A stretch of DNA of 36,309 bases, from positions 1-36,309 of IMG/VR virus record IMGVR_UViG_3300013126_002828. The stretch is one strand, 5' to 3'. This document shows positions 12,680 to 24,722 of this stretch, piece after piece (the first letter of the stretch is position 1; every line of letters starts with the position of its first letter). Under the pieces are notes generated by a model. The model searched no databases. It saw nothing but the letters and a program-made list of their open reading frames with translations, and was not told where the DNA came from. This DNA is from a virus. Both the position numbers and the translations under genes were made by a program.

Positions 12680-15496
12680 TTAGCTTAACACAGCGAAGAA
12701 TGGTAATGGCGCTATAAATTCATCGTGGTCACGAATTTGACTTTCTAAATCAACATGATAATCACTTAAATGTTGGAACATACGCACAACTAATAAACTT
12801 GCCATAACTAAATCATCAGTATCACCTATTTTAGCAGCATAACTACCACCATGTGCTATAAAAGTTTTCAATTCACTTATTAAACTTCTACTATGAAGTT
12901 TCATTTTCTTACTCTCTAATAATGACTTAAACTTGGCACATGCTGTGAGTTTTACTTTTTGTGTTGTGTTAAAGCCTTTACGCTTTTTACCTGCTTCACT
13001 TAAAAATATACCAGGTATATTAATTTCACCATACTCACCTAAAGAAATTAATGCTGCTTCACCTATGCTATTATTTTCTATACTATAATAAATATTGTTA
13101 GGTTCTCCAGTACATTCTTCAATATACTTGTTAATTTGTGCTAATAGTTTAATTTGATTAGGAATATCTGTTTGGTTATGTTTCCATTCACCGATTTGTG
13201 TTGTAGTATTTGCTTCAAAAATTTGTATTGCTGAAGGATCACTTCCTGTTCCTAAGCTAGGATCAAGTCCAACAACATATATATTTCCTTTTGTAGGAGT
13301 CTTATACCAACGAACTTGCCCCATTCTATTAACAGGATCTATACCCTCTAAATCTATTAGTGTGGTTGGAGCAATTAGTGTTTCATCGGCTATCAAAAAT
13401 TCGCAATTTATTTCTCGTCTGAAACGATCTTCTCCAAGTTGTGCTTTAATTTGTTCAGCCCAAGCTTCATCTCGACCAGGTTGTTCATGCCAATATGCTC
13501 TGTACGCTCTAAATCCATTAACACCTAAGTCAGTTGTATTTCCATAAGCATCTTCTGTTTTATTAGCACCTTTCCAAATCAATGCGAATTGATCCTCATC
13601 ACTGTTTGGGGTGCTTGTAATAATTGCTTTACCACCAGTTGCTAATGTTGGAGTAATACTTGTCCAAAATAACTCAGCAATAGTTGGTCTTACGAAAGCA
13701 AATTCGTCTAAGTAAAGTAATGAGATAGACATACCACGACCTGTGTTTTCAGTAGTAGTTGCTGATACAATACGACTACCATTCTCAAAGTCTAAACTAC
13801 CTTTATTATATGTTGTAACACCAGCTTTTATATGCATGGGACAATTTTCATACGCATAACGAATACGCAGCATAATTTCTTGTGCGCCAGTATATTTGTG
13901 TGCTGCTATAAGAATTGTGCTGTCAGGGACAAACATAGCATACCAAAGCAAATAACCAGCAGCACTTGTGGAATTGTGGCTTAGTATCCCATTAGAATAA
14001 AATCGATGATTTTCATGATTTACAGTTAAGTCAAACATATTTTCTTTTTTATTTGTTTTATAAATGTATTTTATATAATCAATTCCGTTAACGGTTCTTA
14101 TTGCAAAACCAACGTTTAAATCTTTAGCAAATATTTGATTATGGTGTTGATCAAACAAAATATGTGTGTCTGCACATTCTAATACCAATCCTGATTGAGT
14201 TTCTATTTTATATACTTCGTATGGTACAGTAAGATGTAGGTCTGTTACAGGTTGGAAACCGAAATCAGTTAATACTTCATATTCTGAAATTGAATGACTT
14301 TCAATAAACTTTCTTTCTACTTGGTCAGAAAGTTTAAGCACTCTGTTATAGTTTTTTGGGGATGTTTTGTGTAATCCTCTTCCCGCACTCTCAAAATTTG
14401 ATATCCAGTTTGAATTATCGCTTGTTCTCGATGTTTTTCCCTTTTTGGATTCGATATCTTTTGTCCATGCCAATATGTTCCGTCGAACTCTATTATTTTC
14501 TTCTTTTCTAAATCTATAAAATCCGGTAGAATAATCTTCCCTGTTGTTAATGGTAGCCTGTATTCTTTGTTGACATAAGTTTCCATATCTGGTCGGGAAA
14601 ATGTAGCATAATATACTTGATTGGACTTGTAGGTTTCCATAATTTGGTTGAACAATTTTTGAGAAATTTGAGAAAAATTTTGCTTCTTGAAATTTTTCAA
14701 CCATTTCTGTTGTCTGGCTGACCAATATCGCATCCCTTCTTCTTTTCCGTATTTTGCAATGCATTTTTCCAATGAAAAAGTTGATTGTCTCTGAGACAAA
14801 AGATGTTGAGCTTTTTCTAGATTTCCATTTGTTTTCTTTAACCAATAATCCAGTCTGGTAGAGTGAGAACTGTTTTGTTTTCTGCTGAGTTCTGCCTTTG
14901 TATTGATAATCTTTGATATATCTCCCTTTAAAAATTTTTTTGAGAAGGGGGACATAGTTCCATTGTGTTTGTACCCAGGATTTCGTTTTCCTGAAAAATT
15001 TTTTGAATTTATTTCTAACAATGCTTGACACCGGGTAGCCGCACAGGGGTATATAGTTTTGTACGTAGTTACTGTCATTTGATGTTTCCGAAACAAATGA
15101 CTGTGTAACTCCTTCATTTCTGCTCCACAAATTTGGCACTTTACTAATTCTGTCATAAAATTCTCCTATAGTTATTTCTTCAACTTTTCCTGTTGTTATA
15201 TTTTTAAGAGTAACTAAAGTATTTATTCCAAAACATTTACCACTTTGTCTTGGCATTAATGCTATACTAAAACGATAGTTATGATATGTTTCAATTAATC
15301 GTTTTTGATAATTGTATGGATGATATACCATACTACCACGAGTTGGATGTTGTATATGGAAAAAGTTATCCATAAAATATAGATAACCGGTTTGTGGATC
15401 ACAACATTTTACAAAGTCATCAAGTTCCTTTTGCGTTTTAAAAACTGTTTTTACATAAGGATCTTTAATTAATGTTATACTACCTGACTTATTCAT
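12680..15496 (-). CDS. Terminase large subunit (gp17-like) interrupted by an intein
   Basis: The extein is a gp17-type packaging ATPase/nuclease. Walker A is MPRQSGK, then (after the intein) STSAAGYLLWYAMF; Walker B is LLYLDEFAFV; coupling is TSTPNSDEDQF; the nuclease acidic residues are in VVGLDPSLGTGSDPSAI, YYSIENNSIGEAAL and DTDDLVMASLL. Removing the 421-residue intein gives a protein of about 517 residues, somewhat shorter than T4 gp17. The start is placed at 15496 (MNKSGSITLIKD) because this ATG overlaps the stop of a 35-residue ORF (ATGAATAA). An in-frame ATG at 15553 would add 19 residues but has no Shine-Dalgarno. The intein splits the Walker A motif, so the enzyme is inactive until splicing. 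Translocation and cutting of the concatemer at the prohead portal is the expected role. Confidence 0.93.
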   Translation of the reverse strand: MNKSGSITLIKDPYVKTVFKTQKELDDFVKCCDPQTGYLYFMDNFFHIQHPTRGSMVYHPYNYQKRLIETYHNYRFSIALMPRQSGKCFGINTLVTLKNITTGKVEEITIGEFYDRISKVPNLWSRNEGVTQSFVSETSNDSNYVQNYIPLCGYPVSSIVRNKFKKFFRKTKSWVQTQWNYVPLLKKIFKGRYIKDYQYKGRTQQKTKQFSLYQTGLLVKENKWKSRKSSTSFVSETINFFIGKMHCKIRKRRRDAILVSQTTEMVEKFQEAKFFSNFSKIVQPNYGNLQVQSSILCYIFPTRYGNLCQQRIQATINNREDYSTGFYRFRKEENNRVRRNILAWTKDIESKKGKTSRTSDNSNWISNFESAGRGLHKTSPKNYNRVLKLSDQVERKFIESHSISEYEVLTDFGFQPVTDLHLTVPYEVYKIETQSGLVLECADTHILFDQHHNQIFAKDLNVGFAIRTVNGIDYIKYIYKTNKKENMFDLTVNHENHRFYSNGILSHNSTSAAGYLLWYAMFVPDSTILIAAHKYTGAQEIMLRIRYAYENCPMHIKAGVTTYNKGSLDFENGSRIVSATTTENTGRGMSISLLYLDEFAFVRPTIAELFWTSITPTLATGGKAIITSTPNSDEDQFALIWKGANKTEDAYGNTTDLGVNGFRAYRAYWHEQPGRDEAWAEQIKAQLGEDRFRREINCEFLIADETLIAPTTLIDLEGIDPVNRMGQVRWYKTPTKGNIYVVGLDPSLGTGSDPSAIQIFEANTTTQIGEWKHNQTDIPNQIKLLAQINKYIEECTGEPNNIYYSIENNSIGEAALISLGEYGEINIPGIFLSEAGKKRKGFNTTQKVKLTACAKFKSLLESKKMKLHSRSLISELKTFIAHGGSYAAKIGDTDDLVMASLLVVRMFQHLSDYHVDLESQIRDHDEFIAPLPFFAVLS
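13973..15235 (-). mobile_element. Intein in the terminase Walker A motif, with a nested endonuclease gene
   Basis: The intein runs from Cys (15235-15233, CFGINTLVTLKN) to the C-terminal GILSHN, followed by Ser of the C-extein: 421 codons. Block A, the GKVEEITIGEFYDRI segment, the YEVLTDFGFQPV segment, block B-like LECADTHILFD, and the C-terminal ENHRFYSNGILSHN are all present. About 280 codons between the GEFYDRI segment and KFIES have no intein similarity. They are the alternative-frame reading of the endonuclease gene at 14317-15156. Without them the splicing domain is of about mini-intein size (roughly 140 residues). Confidence 0.92.
14317..15156 (-). CDS. Vsr-like (PD-(D/E)XK) homing endonuclease nested out of frame in the intein
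   Basis: This 279-residue protein is read one base out of phase with the terminase. It has an N-terminal zinc-finger-like motif (VKCQICGAEM then HSHLFRKH), a middle region rich in lysine and serine with RYWSARQQKWLKNF, and a C-terminal nuclease core: LPDFIDLEKKKIIEFDGTYW, then HGQKI, the REKHREQAI helix and TGYQILRVREEDY. This matches the very-short-patch-repair-like homing endonucleases found with split inteins in phage metagenomes ('fractured genes'). It has its own Shine-Dalgarno (TATAGGAG, eight bases before ATG) formed by the intein codons for I-G-E. Its TAG lies five codons before the intein sequence resumes at KFIES. It should cut intein-free terminase genes and drive homing. Confidence 0.9.
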   Translation of the reverse strand: MTELVKCQICGAEMKELHSHLFRKHQMTVTTYKTIYPCAATRCQALLEINSKNFSGKRNPGYKHNGTMSPFSKKFLKGDISKIINTKAELSRKQNSSHSTRLDYWLKKTNGNLEKAQHLLSQRQSTFSLEKCIAKYGKEEGMRYWSARQQKWLKNFKKQNFSQISQKLFNQIMETYKSNQVYYATFSRPDMETYVNKEYRLPLTTGKIILPDFIDLEKKKIIEFDGTYWHGQKISNPKREKHREQAIIQTGYQILRVREEDYTKHPQKTITECLNFLTK

Positions 15497-15596
15497 ACTT
15501 AAGTTGTAGTGGCTGCTGTGCCAAGTCTTTGTTATCCTCTGAGGATTTGGCATCTATTATATCAGCAAGTTGCCTTAAGATTTCACTGGTTTTCAT
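15489..15596 (-). CDS. Small ORF upstream of and overlapping terminase start
   Basis: This 35-residue ORF (MKTSEILRQLADIIDAKSSE, ending QLKYE) has an amphipathic N-terminal helix of a type seen in small phage proteins. Its TAA overlaps the preferred terminase start (ATGAATAA), which would couple translation. GGA lies eight bases before its ATG. It occupies the place of the small-terminase gene in T4 but is far too short for that. It might be a leader peptide or a small conserved gene. Confidence 0.5.
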   Translation of the reverse strand: MKTSEILRQLADIIDAKSSEDNKDLAQQPLQLKYE

Positions 15597-16406: not shown

Positions 16407-16805
16407 TTATTTTTTGTAGCCTTTAAAACCTTTAACTATGCTTTTTGTGTTAACATAGTCAGCTTCATAGCTACGATTGTTTGTGAGTTGTTTTACTTCA
16501 CCTGCCCCAATCATTTTGGCAGCACCATTAATAATATCCATTTCTACATCGGTATATGTAGATAATAATGGATCGCCAGCAAAAGCACCTGCCGGTTCAG
16601 TTGGGTAATCGGGGGCTCCTGCCATTGCTATACCAAAGCGCCATTGAGCGTATGGACTACCGCCCTGCTTTGTTTGACTAATGTCAGGCATGCTAATCAT
16701 ACCTTTCATAGCACTTCTTTGACTTTTAGGCAATTTTTTTGCGTCTGCTGGAACATCTTCTGCTGCTCCATACTTTGCTTCTGTAATAAATTCACTTGCC
16801 CTCAT
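16407..16805 (-). CDS. MRASEFITE paralogue 1, candidate packaged internal protein
   Basis: This 132-residue protein opens MRASEFITEAKYGAAEDVP and closes VKGFKGYKK, both ends shared with two paralogues at 17682 and 18065. The opening resembles the capsid-targeting sequence of T4 internal proteins (MKTYQEFIAE, cut after the glutamate by the prohead protease), with I-T-E followed by A. The body (SPYAQWRFGIAMAGAPDYP) does not reveal a domain. The gene overlaps the Ntn-hydrolase gene by 14 bases. Packaging in the head and ejection with the DNA is inferred from the N-terminus. Confidence 0.75.
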   Translation of the reverse strand: MRASEFITEAKYGAAEDVPADAKKLPKSQRSAMKGMISMPDISQTKQGGSPYAQWRFGIAMAGAPDYPTEPAGAFAGDPLLSTYTDVEMDIINGAAKMIGAGEVKQLTNNRSYEADYVNTKSIVKGFKGYKK

Positions 16806-17681: not shown

Positions 17682-18068
17682 TTATTTTTTATAGCCCTTA
17701 AATGCATTTATTGGACTTTTTAAGTTGGTATCATCAAGTTCCCATTTACCAGTAGTAAATAATTCTTGTGGCTTCATGCCCAACTTTTTCATAACTTTCT
17801 TAAGTTTTTCTCTGTCATGTTCTGTATATGCGCTATAGACAGGTAAGTTGCCGAAAAAACTAATATCATCAACTTTATCCAACTCATCAGGATCCATGCC
17901 AATCAAACTAGCAATTCTGTAAAAATCATAGTATCGACCAACATACATATCGCCACGACCAGTTGGGCTGACTAAGCCAGGATGTGCTGCTTGAAATTCT
18001 TTAGTGGCATCTGATCTAGTACCACCTCTCTCACCCTTACCTTCTGTTATAAACTCACTTGCTCTCAT
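17682..18068 (-). CDS. MRASEFITE paralogue 2, candidate packaged internal protein
   Basis: This 128-residue protein starts MRASEFITEGKGERGGTRSD and ends INAFKGYKK. It shares both termini with its neighbours, while the middle (GRYYDFYRIASLIGMDPDEL and the HDREKLKKVMKKLGM helix) differs. The ATG overlaps the stop of the upstream paralogue by four bases (ATGA). The I-T-E-G sequence is a good match to the T4-type prohead protease pattern. The function is unknown. Confidence 0.75.
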   Translation of the reverse strand: MRASEFITEGKGERGGTRSDATKEFQAAHPGLVSPTGRGDMYVGRYYDFYRIASLIGMDPDELDKVDDISFFGNLPVYSAYTEHDREKLKKVMKKLGMKPQELFTTGKWELDDTNLKSPINAFKGYKK

Positions 18069-18466
18069 CTCTTATAACCCTTAAATGGCTTTATTGGAGA
18101 TTTTTTCAACGTATCGTCAAACTCCTTACTTCCTGGTGTGCTTACTGCTATTCTTCCACTCTTATTAACTTGCTTCAATGCTTTGTCAATAACTTTTTCC
18201 ATGGCAGGATCAAAACTGCTAATAATTTGATTTTCACCCCAAGTTGTTTCAGCACGAAACTCAGGCTTGTATGGATCAATATCTTTATCATCACCCATAT
18301 TTCCACGAACATCAGCAATACTTACACCAAAGCGATATAATTCATAAAAGTCTTGATTCTTTAATTCAGGTAAAACATAGGTATATGGTAATGATCTAGC
18401 AGCAACGTCCAAACCATCATGGACATCGCTTAATTTTTGCTCTGTTATAAACTCTCTAGCTCTCAT
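18065..18466 (-). CDS. MRASEFITE paralogue 3, candidate packaged internal protein
   Basis: This 133-residue protein starts MRAREFITEQKLSDVHDGLD and ends SPIKPFKGYKR. A shared DFYELYRFGVSIADVRGN segment resembles paralogue 1's WRFGIAMAG and paralogue 2's DFYRIASLIG, suggesting one ancestral fold. It overlaps the stop of the upstream virion-protein gene and the start of paralogue 2 by four bases each. Packaging in the capsid is inferred from the N-terminus. Confidence 0.75.
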   Translation of the reverse strand: MRAREFITEQKLSDVHDGLDVAARSLPYTYVLPELKNQDFYELYRFGVSIADVRGNMGDDKDIDPYKPEFRAETTWGENQIISSFDPAMEKVIDKALKQVNKSGRIAVSTPGSKEFDDTLKKSPIKPFKGYKR

Positions 18467-22048: not shown

Positions 22049-22317
22049 TTATACTTCAACTTAAAAAATGTATAATCCTGTTCCTTAAAAATTCCCGTTA
22101 TTGTAACACGATATCCGTAACTAAGTGGATCAGCGCCAATCGTATAATAAAGCTGTTCAACACTTTTTTCTATACAATATTTGCCTACTTCAGTTTGTTG
22201 CCATTCATATATTGGACTACCAGCATAAATGTCAGGATCGTCAACATCACCCATATTAAATGAATGAACAATAGCTTTAATTAAACTGCCATTTTGGCTA
22301 CAATCTGAGGATGACAT
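22045..22317 (-). CDS. Conserved phage protein, unknown function
   Basis: This 90-residue protein contains FNMGDVDDPDIYAGSPIYEW, QQTEVGKYC, and ends YGYRVTITGIFKEQDYTFFKLKY, a pattern I recall from small hypothetical proteins of T4-like cyanophages. Its first 12 or so residues (MSSSDCSQNG) overlap the thyA-tail copy at the end of the GIY-YIG gene. They may not belong to the original protein; the original start may have been altered by the insertion. No enzymatic motif is evident. Confidence 0.75.
   Translation of the reverse strand: MSSSDCSQNGSLIKAIVHSFNMGDVDDPDIYAGSPIYEWQQTEVGKYCIEKSVEQLYYTIGADPLSYGYRVTITGIFKEQDYTFFKLKYK
22281..22313 (-). repeat. Displaced thyA 3'-end copy, fused to the GIY-YIG gene
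   Basis: The last 11 codons of the endonuclease gene read CHPQIVAKMAV-stop, matching the thymidylate synthase C-terminal pattern H-P-x-I-x-x-x-M-A-V. The current thyA gene ends SHGQLKAPMAV at 23172-23204. At DNA level ATGGC(A/G)GTTTAAT is shared by both with one difference in 13 bases. Confidence 0.65.
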
Positions 22318-23126
22318 GTTTCTATCTTTTTAATCATATGTTTATTAAAAACACTCTTAGTCGGTATTATACCCTTGGACATACGTTTAATGGTTGCGTG
22401 AACATTAGAAATACTGACATTGAATTCTTCTGCGATACTCTTTAAACCTGCTACTTGTTTTGTCTTCCCATTTGGATAAATTATCTCATAATATGTCGTA
22501 TAGGGTAATAGGGCAGGGTCAATTCCCTTAATCCACTTTCCTCCTGCTTTACTTAGTTTTTTTAATGTTTTTTCTGAATGCGTTTTTCCGTAGAATGGAT
22601 TCTGCCTTCCTGTTCTATCACGGCATTTACCGCATGTTTTAGATGTTGGTTCAATTCTAATTTTTTGACATACTGGACACATTATTTTTTTCCCACCGTT
22701 TCTCCAATTTGGATTACTTTCACCTGGTTTACTAAATCGAGCTTTTCTCTCTAGGTCAGTCAAGTTGGCCATCCATTCCCTAAATTTATTTGCCCTATCC
22801 TCAAGTATAGTCTCTCTATCAGGGTGATTAGACAATGTATCACCTCCATTAGCTTGTGCTATGTTATAGCCATCAAAGTTATTGTCAATATACCATTGTT
22901 CCCTATCTTGAAGTTCTTTCTTAGTAGGATCACCCATATCTTCTATAGGTATAAAAGAAAATTTATCAGACCCGTGTAAATTATACGAACGCTGTAGATA
23001 AACATTGATATGTTTTCCTTTGGTTAATCCCCTGCGATGCTGTTCTAATCTCCATTCGATGTTCATTGAACTACCGTAATACCTTTTACCTGTAACAATA
23101 TTTTCTATACAATATATGCCCTTCAT
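22281..23126 (-). CDS. GIY-YIG homing endonuclease inserted behind thyA
   Basis: This 281-residue protein has the GIY-YIG domain (MKGIYCIENIVTGKRYYGSS, then RLEQHRRG and LQDREQWYIDN). A zinc-finger-like part (CPVCQK...CGKCRD), NUMOD3-like repeats (NPNWRNGG, NPFYGKTHSEKTLKKLS) and a C-terminal NUMOD1-like helix-turn-helix (GLKSIAEEFNVSISNVHATI) follow. AGGAG lies seven bases before its ATG. Its last codons (CHPQIVAKMAV-stop) look like the C-terminus of a thymidylate synthase, not of an endonuclease. This suggests it was inserted into the thyA 3' end and uses the displaced tail as its own. Confidence 0.9.
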   Translation of the reverse strand: MKGIYCIENIVTGKRYYGSSMNIEWRLEQHRRGLTKGKHINVYLQRSYNLHGSDKFSFIPIEDMGDPTKKELQDREQWYIDNNFDGYNIAQANGGDTLSNHPDRETILEDRANKFREWMANLTDLERKARFSKPGESNPNWRNGGKKIMCPVCQKIRIEPTSKTCGKCRDRTGRQNPFYGKTHSEKTLKKLSKAGGKWIKGIDPALLPYTTYYEIIYPNGKTKQVAGLKSIAEEFNVSISNVHATIKRMSKGIIPTKSVFNKHMIKKIETCHPQIVAKMAV

Positions 23127-24134: not shown

Positions 24135-24722
24135 ATGATATTTAGCAGAAAACATCCTCCTACTGAATTTTATGTATATGCCTATCTTAGAGAAGATGGC
24201 ACACCCTATTATATAGGTAAAGGTAAAGATAACCGAGCCTGGGATAGTAATCACACCGTAAATCTTCCCAAAGACAAATGTAGAATAATAATTATATCTC
24301 ATGGATTAGTTGAATTGTGGGCGTTAGCAATTGAGCGCAGATTAATAAGATGGTATGGGCGTAAAAATAATAAAACAGGTATACTTAGAAATAAAACTGA
24401 CGGTGGTGAGGGAGGTAGTGGATCTATATGGACTGAAATATCAAGGAATAAATTACGAGGAACTAATAATCCTGCCACTAAGCAAGAAAATAAAGACAAG
24501 TTCTCTGGAAGAAATCATTACATGAAAAAACCTGGGTATTTACCAACAGATAATCACAGATACGATACAACTATATACAACTTTGAAAATATCAATACCG
24601 GAGAAAGAGTTGCTATGACTCAGCATCAATTACGAATTTTATATAACCTCGAGGCTGGTAACTTGAGCAGAGTCATACGAGGGAAGCAATCATCAATTCA
24701 CGGCTGGCGACTGAGTAAGTAA
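24135..24722 (+). CDS. GIY-YIG homing endonuclease (plus strand) between thyA and DHFR
   Basis: This 195-residue protein starts with the variant GIY-YIG domain [20 protein letters not shown] and [18 protein letters not shown], a NUMOD3-like [22 protein letters not shown] stretch and a C-terminal helix-turn-helix-like part ([20 protein letters not shown]) follow. AAGGA lies nine bases before the ATG. It is one of only two plus-strand genes and separates thyA from DHFR, genes that are normally adjacent. It is therefore an insertion. No duplicated gene end was found around it. Confidence 0.88.

Follow-up and report, generated by a model that had tools for sequence, protein, structure and literature searches.

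The window analysed here is a stretch of 36,309 bases of viral DNA (IMG/VR virus record IMGVR_UViG_3300013126_002828), which encodes the large subunit of a T4-type phage terminase, an essential packaging protein, interrupted by an intein. The intein, corresponding to residues 107–527 of an open reading frame (ORF) of 957 codons, sits in the Walker A motif of the terminase (...PRQSGK/C1...HN/STSAAGY...) and carries a homing endonuclease gene (HEG) that starts 397 nt into the host ORF and is read in a different frame of the same strand. Across the HEG, the host-frame reading, hereafter referred to as the shadow, has 0 stops, whereas stops abound in the remaining sense frame and in each of the three antisense frames. 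The N-terminal part of the intein (IntN, residues 1–33) and its C-terminal part (IntC, from ERKF at 14317) abut the HEG flush (Table 1). This is the arrangement that an earlier note on this DNA, made from the sequence alone, had described: an endonuclease nested out of frame within an unsplit intein, with both frames open and the endonuclease lying directly between the intein-similar parts.

The insert between the intein-similar parts (intein residues 34–305) comprises 272 residues with an isoelectric point (pI) of 10.2 and matches nothing known. The note had envisaged a basic, serine-rich insert of about 270 residues; the size and the basic character agree with the analysis, and the serine content amounts to 10%. 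The length of the spliced terminase, put there at about 517 residues, is corrected to a predicted 536 amino acids. The HEG begins at intein residue 27–28 and the intein similarity ends near residue 33, that is, at the break point of inteins of the AceL/Cat/VidaL type, which falls after approximately 25–37 residues. However, split inteins consist of two separately translated halves with a stop-interrupted host frame, whereas here the host frame is open over all 957 codons.

Table 1. Features of the intein-containing terminase locus, in positions of the window
Feature	Positions	Strand	Supporting evidence
Terminase large subunit precursor ORF with intein, open throughout, 957 codons	12680..15553	-	Pfam Terminase_6N / 6C
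N-extein, 106 codons, ending ...PRQSGK (Walker A motif)	15236..15553	-	Empty site ...PRQSGK/ST... in 79/80 nearest terminases
IntN, intein residues 1-33, Cys1 at 15233-15235	15137..15235	-	Predicted local distance difference test (pLDDT) score ~88 in intein model
Intein motif T-I-G-E-F-Y-D, the codons of which double as HEG Shine-Dalgarno GGAG (15163-15166) and ATG (15154-15156)	15152..15172	-	
EDxHD/Vsr-like HEG, 279 amino acids, +1 frame relative to host ORF; zinc-finger-like N-terminal part, nuclease domain ~160-279	14317..15156	-	
Shadow stretch, host frame, intein residues 34-305; stop-free, unconserved as protein, predicted disordered	14321..15136	-	
GTG where split relatives begin a separate IntC; formed by the E-C codons of the HEG	14339..14341	-	
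IntC, 115 residues, His-Asn end	13973..14317	-	TIGR01443 intein_Cterm above cut-off
Terminase C-extein, first residues STSAAGY (+1 Ser), includes stop	12680..13972	-	

Intein and endonuclease folds

The intein has the residues of class 1 inteins, with C1, H358, D402, H410, H420 and N421 being invariant across 10 loci and Ser at the +1 position. In the AlphaFold model of the intein, both halves have pLDDT values mostly of 81–94, whereas the entire shadow falls below 50. When compared with solved structures, the model was closest to VidaL (6vgv; Z 21.0, 1.5 Å over 136 residues) and matched gp41-1 with a Z of 17.8. As modelled, the two intein halves jointly build the HINT fold.

The HEG protein matches DUF559 above the Pfam cut-off and, weakly, Vsr by NCBIfam, and yields a profile match to I-Bth0305I (3r3p, E 5e-4); its N-terminus resembles a Ros-like zinc finger. 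The model of the protein, with a mean pLDDT of 80, has 3r3p as its best structural match (Z 11.7; also the top Foldseek match), with 1cw0 at Z 9.0. The modelled product has the Vsr/I-Bth0305I nuclease fold, bearing out its earlier identification as a Vsr-like homing endonuclease.

Nested and split relatives

Scans of viral_contigs revealed seven further nested lineages (the L001/L003 group, the partial L007, L098, L099, L171, L179 and L196), resulting, with the window, in eight lineages, all of them represented by uncultivated viral (metagenomic) contigs. Their HEGs are 33–62% identical to that of the window, lie in the same phase and have 0 shadow stops. The same HEG family is also found between the halves of split inteins, in 36 distinct same-phase lineages with 18–67 stops in the shadow; these split relatives reside in terminases and, as judged from NGSGKC or PKLGKC contexts, also in other ATPase genes. 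Thus, the nested arrangement recurs in related terminases, where the note had proposed to look for it, and the kinship with the "fractured genes" of split inteins that it had suspected is evident from the 36 split lineages. The note had named homologues with a regularly broken shadow as evidence against its reading; all such homologues are split, with a separate IntC gene, and all eight nested lineages are open. No same-phase lineage with 1–17 shadow stops, as would be expected of a partly decayed or partly purged locus, was found among the nested and the 36 split lineages. A further candidate, L166, first appeared to be nested and was rejected as a different gene and intein.

In 7 of the 8 nested loci examined and in many split relatives, the HEG start codon lies at a constant position within the motif T-[IV]-G-[DEK]-[FL]-Y. 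The codons of this motif also provide the Shine-Dalgarno sequence (ATAGGAGAATTTTATG), which accounts for the dual role of an intein motif as a ribosome-binding site. In L196, an analogous upstream motif, T-G-E-I-Y-E, is found instead. A DNA-pattern search for the HEG start region in viral_contigs gave no match, the spacing in the pattern probably being wrong. The start codon of IntC in the split relatives overlaps the end of the HEG; at this position, the nested L179 (TTT) and L196 (GGT) lack a start codon, and hence they cannot use the separate-IntC route.

Other layouts were observed at the same or related sites. Mini-inteins occupy the same terminase site in the cultured Vibrio phage Kuja and Klebsiella phage Magnus. 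The terminase of Agrobacterium phage Atu_ph07 (L220, 2019–4210), annotated as two adjacent genes, has a split intein at this site without an endonuclease between the halves, and in Vibrio phage Va1 (L009, 2281–4566), a related Vsr-like nuclease domain is located in frame, N-terminal to the IntC of a split terminase intein, representing a third module layout. A second intein or IntN is present further along the same terminase in L004 and L006 (~7.1 kb), L007, L098 and L099, with the one found in L004 missing from L002. The second IntN of L098 continues in frame into a GIY-YIG-like domain, after which the ORF ends.

Selection on the shadow frame

The host frame takes the HEG codon positions in the order 3-1-2, so that every potential shadow stop is an NNT codon followed by AA, AG or GA. 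Because NNT and NNC are always synonymous, any shadow stop can be removed silently, by a T-to-C change, and a full endonuclease can therefore coexist with an unbroken precursor. Given the HEG protein and the codon usage of this phage, approximately 32 shadow stops are expected (P of none = 2.8e-20), and shuffling of the synonymous codons of the window HEG left 15.3 ± 2.6 stops, with a minimum of 6 (5000 shuffles). Consistently, the NNT/NNC codons of the window HEG that precede AA, AG or GA include 0 T and 19 C, compared to 69 T and 18 C elsewhere (Fisher p = 4e-11), and the same avoidance of T is observed in L001, L003, L098, L099, L171, L179 and L196 (p 1e-9 to 3e-15) as well as in the partial L007 (p = 3e-4). 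By contrast, the ordinary genes of the window are unbiased, with T:C ratios of 1382:376 at stop-prone sites and 2380:740 elsewhere, and the longest shadow-open run in any of them is 102 codons, or 79 in the same phase. Chance openness is ruled out by the simulation and the control genes, and low-T codon usage of the HEG is ruled out as the cause by the normal level of T at safe sites.

The shadow is not conserved as a protein. Its identity between nested lineages is 25–33% in most pairs, no higher than predicted by the conservation of the HEG (for instance, 0.253 observed versus 0.268 ± 0.020 expected from HEG conservation alone), so it is openness alone that is selected in the host frame, and the HEG substitutions between nested lineages fall mostly at codon position 3. 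Collectively, the codon patterns indicate that the host frame is under selection for stop-free reading only, exerted through silent changes. The selection for an unbroken precursor that the note had deduced is thereby substantiated, by the improbability of a stop-free shadow, the codon bias and the open shadow of all eight nested lineages; as to whether codon changes preserve both frames, a check that it had proposed, the host frame is preserved in openness but not in amino acids.

Mobility and HEG-deleted derivatives

The inteins of L003 and L004 are identical over 1266/1266 bp, whereas the surrounding terminase (extein) DNA is only 65% and 71% identical. Both forms recur in another sample (L005, L006), which speaks against chimeric assembly. 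Identity of the intein in diverged terminases, along with a site that is empty in nearly all of the nearest terminases (Table 1), indicates that the intein is mobile. The HEG can also be lost with the frame retained: L087 corresponds to the allele of L003 (549/552) from which 714 bp (238 codons) have been removed, leaving a mini-intein with a shadow-derived linker. L084 (231–809) is likewise a mini-intein and a relic of HEG deletion; the front of its residual shadow matches L171 and the back matches L003, hence it is a recombinant.

Proposed expression and splicing of the overprinted locus

We consider it highly probable that the terminase Walker A motif harbours a mobile intein of the contiguous (cis) type, with a homing endonuclease overprinted out of frame on the intein frame. 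Ribosomes starting at the terminase start would read the N-extein, IntN, some 272 shadow residues, IntC and the C-extein without a break. IntN and IntC are predicted to form a HINT domain from which the shadow protrudes as a disordered loop at the surface; self-splicing would then excise the intein, shadow included, and yield the 536-residue terminase. Other ribosomes would initiate internally on the same mRNA, at the ATG and Shine-Dalgarno sequence contained in the T-I-G-E-F-Y-D codons, and produce the 279-residue EDxHD endonuclease. The latter may cut intein-free alleles, leading to copying of the whole element into them, a mobility that is seen indirectly.

Several observations weigh against this interpretation. 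Among cultured phages no nested case was found, but only HEG relatives of less than 36% identity, and genome_contigs, scanned with the nested HEGs, contained no relatives. In addition, most nested lineages have retained a start codon, either ATG or GTG (GTG in the window), at the split-type IntC start, where some trans-splicing may be possible. The retained codon would also be expected if the locus were still functionally split, with an IntN-shadow fragment being trans-spliced to an IntC-terminase fragment initiated at the GTG/ATG near 14341, as would the close relationship to split inteins in which IntC starts at exactly this codon. Such a locus would not need every shadow stop to be purged, however, and L179 and L196 have no start codon at that point, and the HEG-deleted L087 and L084 have kept the frame, all of which renders trans-splicing unlikely.

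The stop-free shadow also bears on the other alternatives. That 272 codons are kept open in all nested lineages could reflect a shadow peptide functioning as a protein domain, but we regard this as very unlikely, given that the shadow is no more similar between lineages than HEG conservation alone would make it, is predicted to be disordered and has lost 238 codons in L087. Programmed frameshifting joining IntN to the HEG would yield the in-frame endonuclease seen in classical bifunctional inteins, and a related nuclease domain is indeed joined in frame to IntC in Vibrio phage Va1; yet two shifts would be needed, the purging of the shadow would be left unexplained and the HEG is equipped with a Shine-Dalgarno sequence and an ATG of its own in a constant position, making this route most improbable. 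HEGs are often carried by introns, and removal of the HEG stretch at the RNA level, as a group I or other intron, would exempt this part of the host frame from translation. This is hardly conceivable at the present locus: the Rfam scan of the window at gathering thresholds gave no match, so no group I intron core was found; the intein similarity, being flush with the HEG, leaves no room for such a core; and RNA removal would exert no selection against shadow stops, all of which have been purged.

Direction of evolution

The HEG tree places the nested loci among the split ones, as one group except for L196, the HEG of which groups with split lineages and the gene of Caulobacter phage Cr30; a single nested clade has a p of 0.019 in the approximately unbiased (AU) test. 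In the IntC tree (114 columns, weakly resolved), nested IntCs appear in about four places among the split ones. The differing histories of the intein halves and the HEG suggest exchange between HEGs and inteins, for which the poorly resolved IntC tree serves only as a hint. Both trees are unrooted.

The note had seen in the locus either an intermediate between classical inteins and fractured genes or a novel means of carrying a homing gene. The first of these was not specifically supported: with the nested HEGs lying among split ones and L196 apart, re-fusion of split inteins fits at least as well. From the sequence comparisons, and with the trees unrooted, we lean towards nesting being derived from split inteins by silent loss of the shadow stops, perhaps twice. 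A more specific scenario, which we put forward tentatively and at somewhat less than even chances, is that silent T-to-C loss of all 20–60 shadow stops rendered a split intein contiguous with the HEG intact on at least two occasions (in the window clade and in L196), and that the HEG, once purged, moves as a cassette compatible with either frame. Alternatively, and this concerns the history rather than the mechanism, the nested form may be the older one, intermediate between the contiguous intein and fractured genes, with splits having arisen by gain of stops. Unrooted trees are compatible with this order, one new stop would suffice to split an intein, and IntC in the 36 split lineages keeps the phase expected of an unsplit intein. 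Against it stand the positions of the nested HEGs, including the separate one of L196, the scattering, weakly resolved, of nested IntCs and the lack of any same-phase locus with 1–17 shadow stops; we hold an older nested form to be possible but doubtful. Irrespective of the direction, loci of this kind make the origin or undoing of split inteins testable.

Relation to known systems

Inteins are known to carry their endonucleases in different ways. In classical bifunctional inteins, a LAGLIDADG or HNH domain is encoded in frame and belongs to the intein protein itself; the window element is likewise a mobile intein with its endonuclease, but the endonuclease is a separate, out-of-frame protein. 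Fractured genes, as reportedly described by Dassa et al. in 2009, are split inteins whose halves flank a gene for a Vsr-like (EDxHD) endonuclease. The window shares with them the kind of endonuclease and its neighbourhood, and in its direct split relatives the HEG start lies in the IntN motif and the IntC start overlaps the HEG end. Unlike in fractured genes, the window intein is unsplit, the host frame runs uninterrupted across the HEG and the shadow stops have all been purged.

AceL-TerL, GOS-TerL and Cat-TerL are atypically split terminase inteins with an IntN of 25–37 amino acids (PMC11766414). The window resembles these and VidaL (6vgv), the closest solved structure, in the TerL-type host gene and the break after some 30 residues; however, they act as two polypeptides, whereas the window intein is contiguous, with the HEG overprinted at the break point. 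The closest precedent is the ShiLan domain, an out-of-frame HNH endonuclease in an actinophage (mycobacteriophage) methylase which displays homing behaviour, has no splicing domain, is thought to remain in the protein and lacks a recognisable ribosome-binding site (PMC11855218). In both cases, the HEG lies in another frame of an insertion with a stop-free host frame, but in the window a complete intein surrounds the HEG, a Shine-Dalgarno sequence is present and the purging is demonstrated against a split control. I-Bth0305I (3r3p), an EDxHD homing endonuclease and the best profile and structural match of the window HEG, is annotated as a mobile intron protein, whereas the window HEG is intein-borne and overprinted. 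In the literature, subscription papers being outside the coverage, no report was found of an unsplit intein with an endonuclease encoded out of frame.

Overprinting would represent a third way for an intein to carry a homing endonuclease, besides in-frame fusion and gene splitting, and one in which the host gene stays unbroken. It provides a clean natural case of a long same-strand overlap with one frame selected as protein and the other for openness only, the split relatives being a built-in control. It further suggests a capacity of inteins to accommodate very long disordered segments at the AceL/VidaL break point, a property of possible value in intein engineering. Programs that annotate a single frame in any given stretch would pass over one gene of the pair, and such HEGs have therefore probably gone unnoticed.

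Other genes in the window

A second homing-type endonuclease is encoded on the minus strand at 22284–23126 and contains a GIY-YIG domain with an I-TevI-type zinc finger and NUMOD3. Two plus-strand ORFs lie among minus-strand genes: the product of 24135–24722 is GIY-YIG-like by eye, with no Pfam match, and that of 27313–27942 matches DUF7487. Three small minus-strand paralogues (16410–16805, 17685–18068 and 18068–18466) have no Pfam match and share the N-terminus MRA[SR]EFITE and the C-terminus ...FKGYK[KR].
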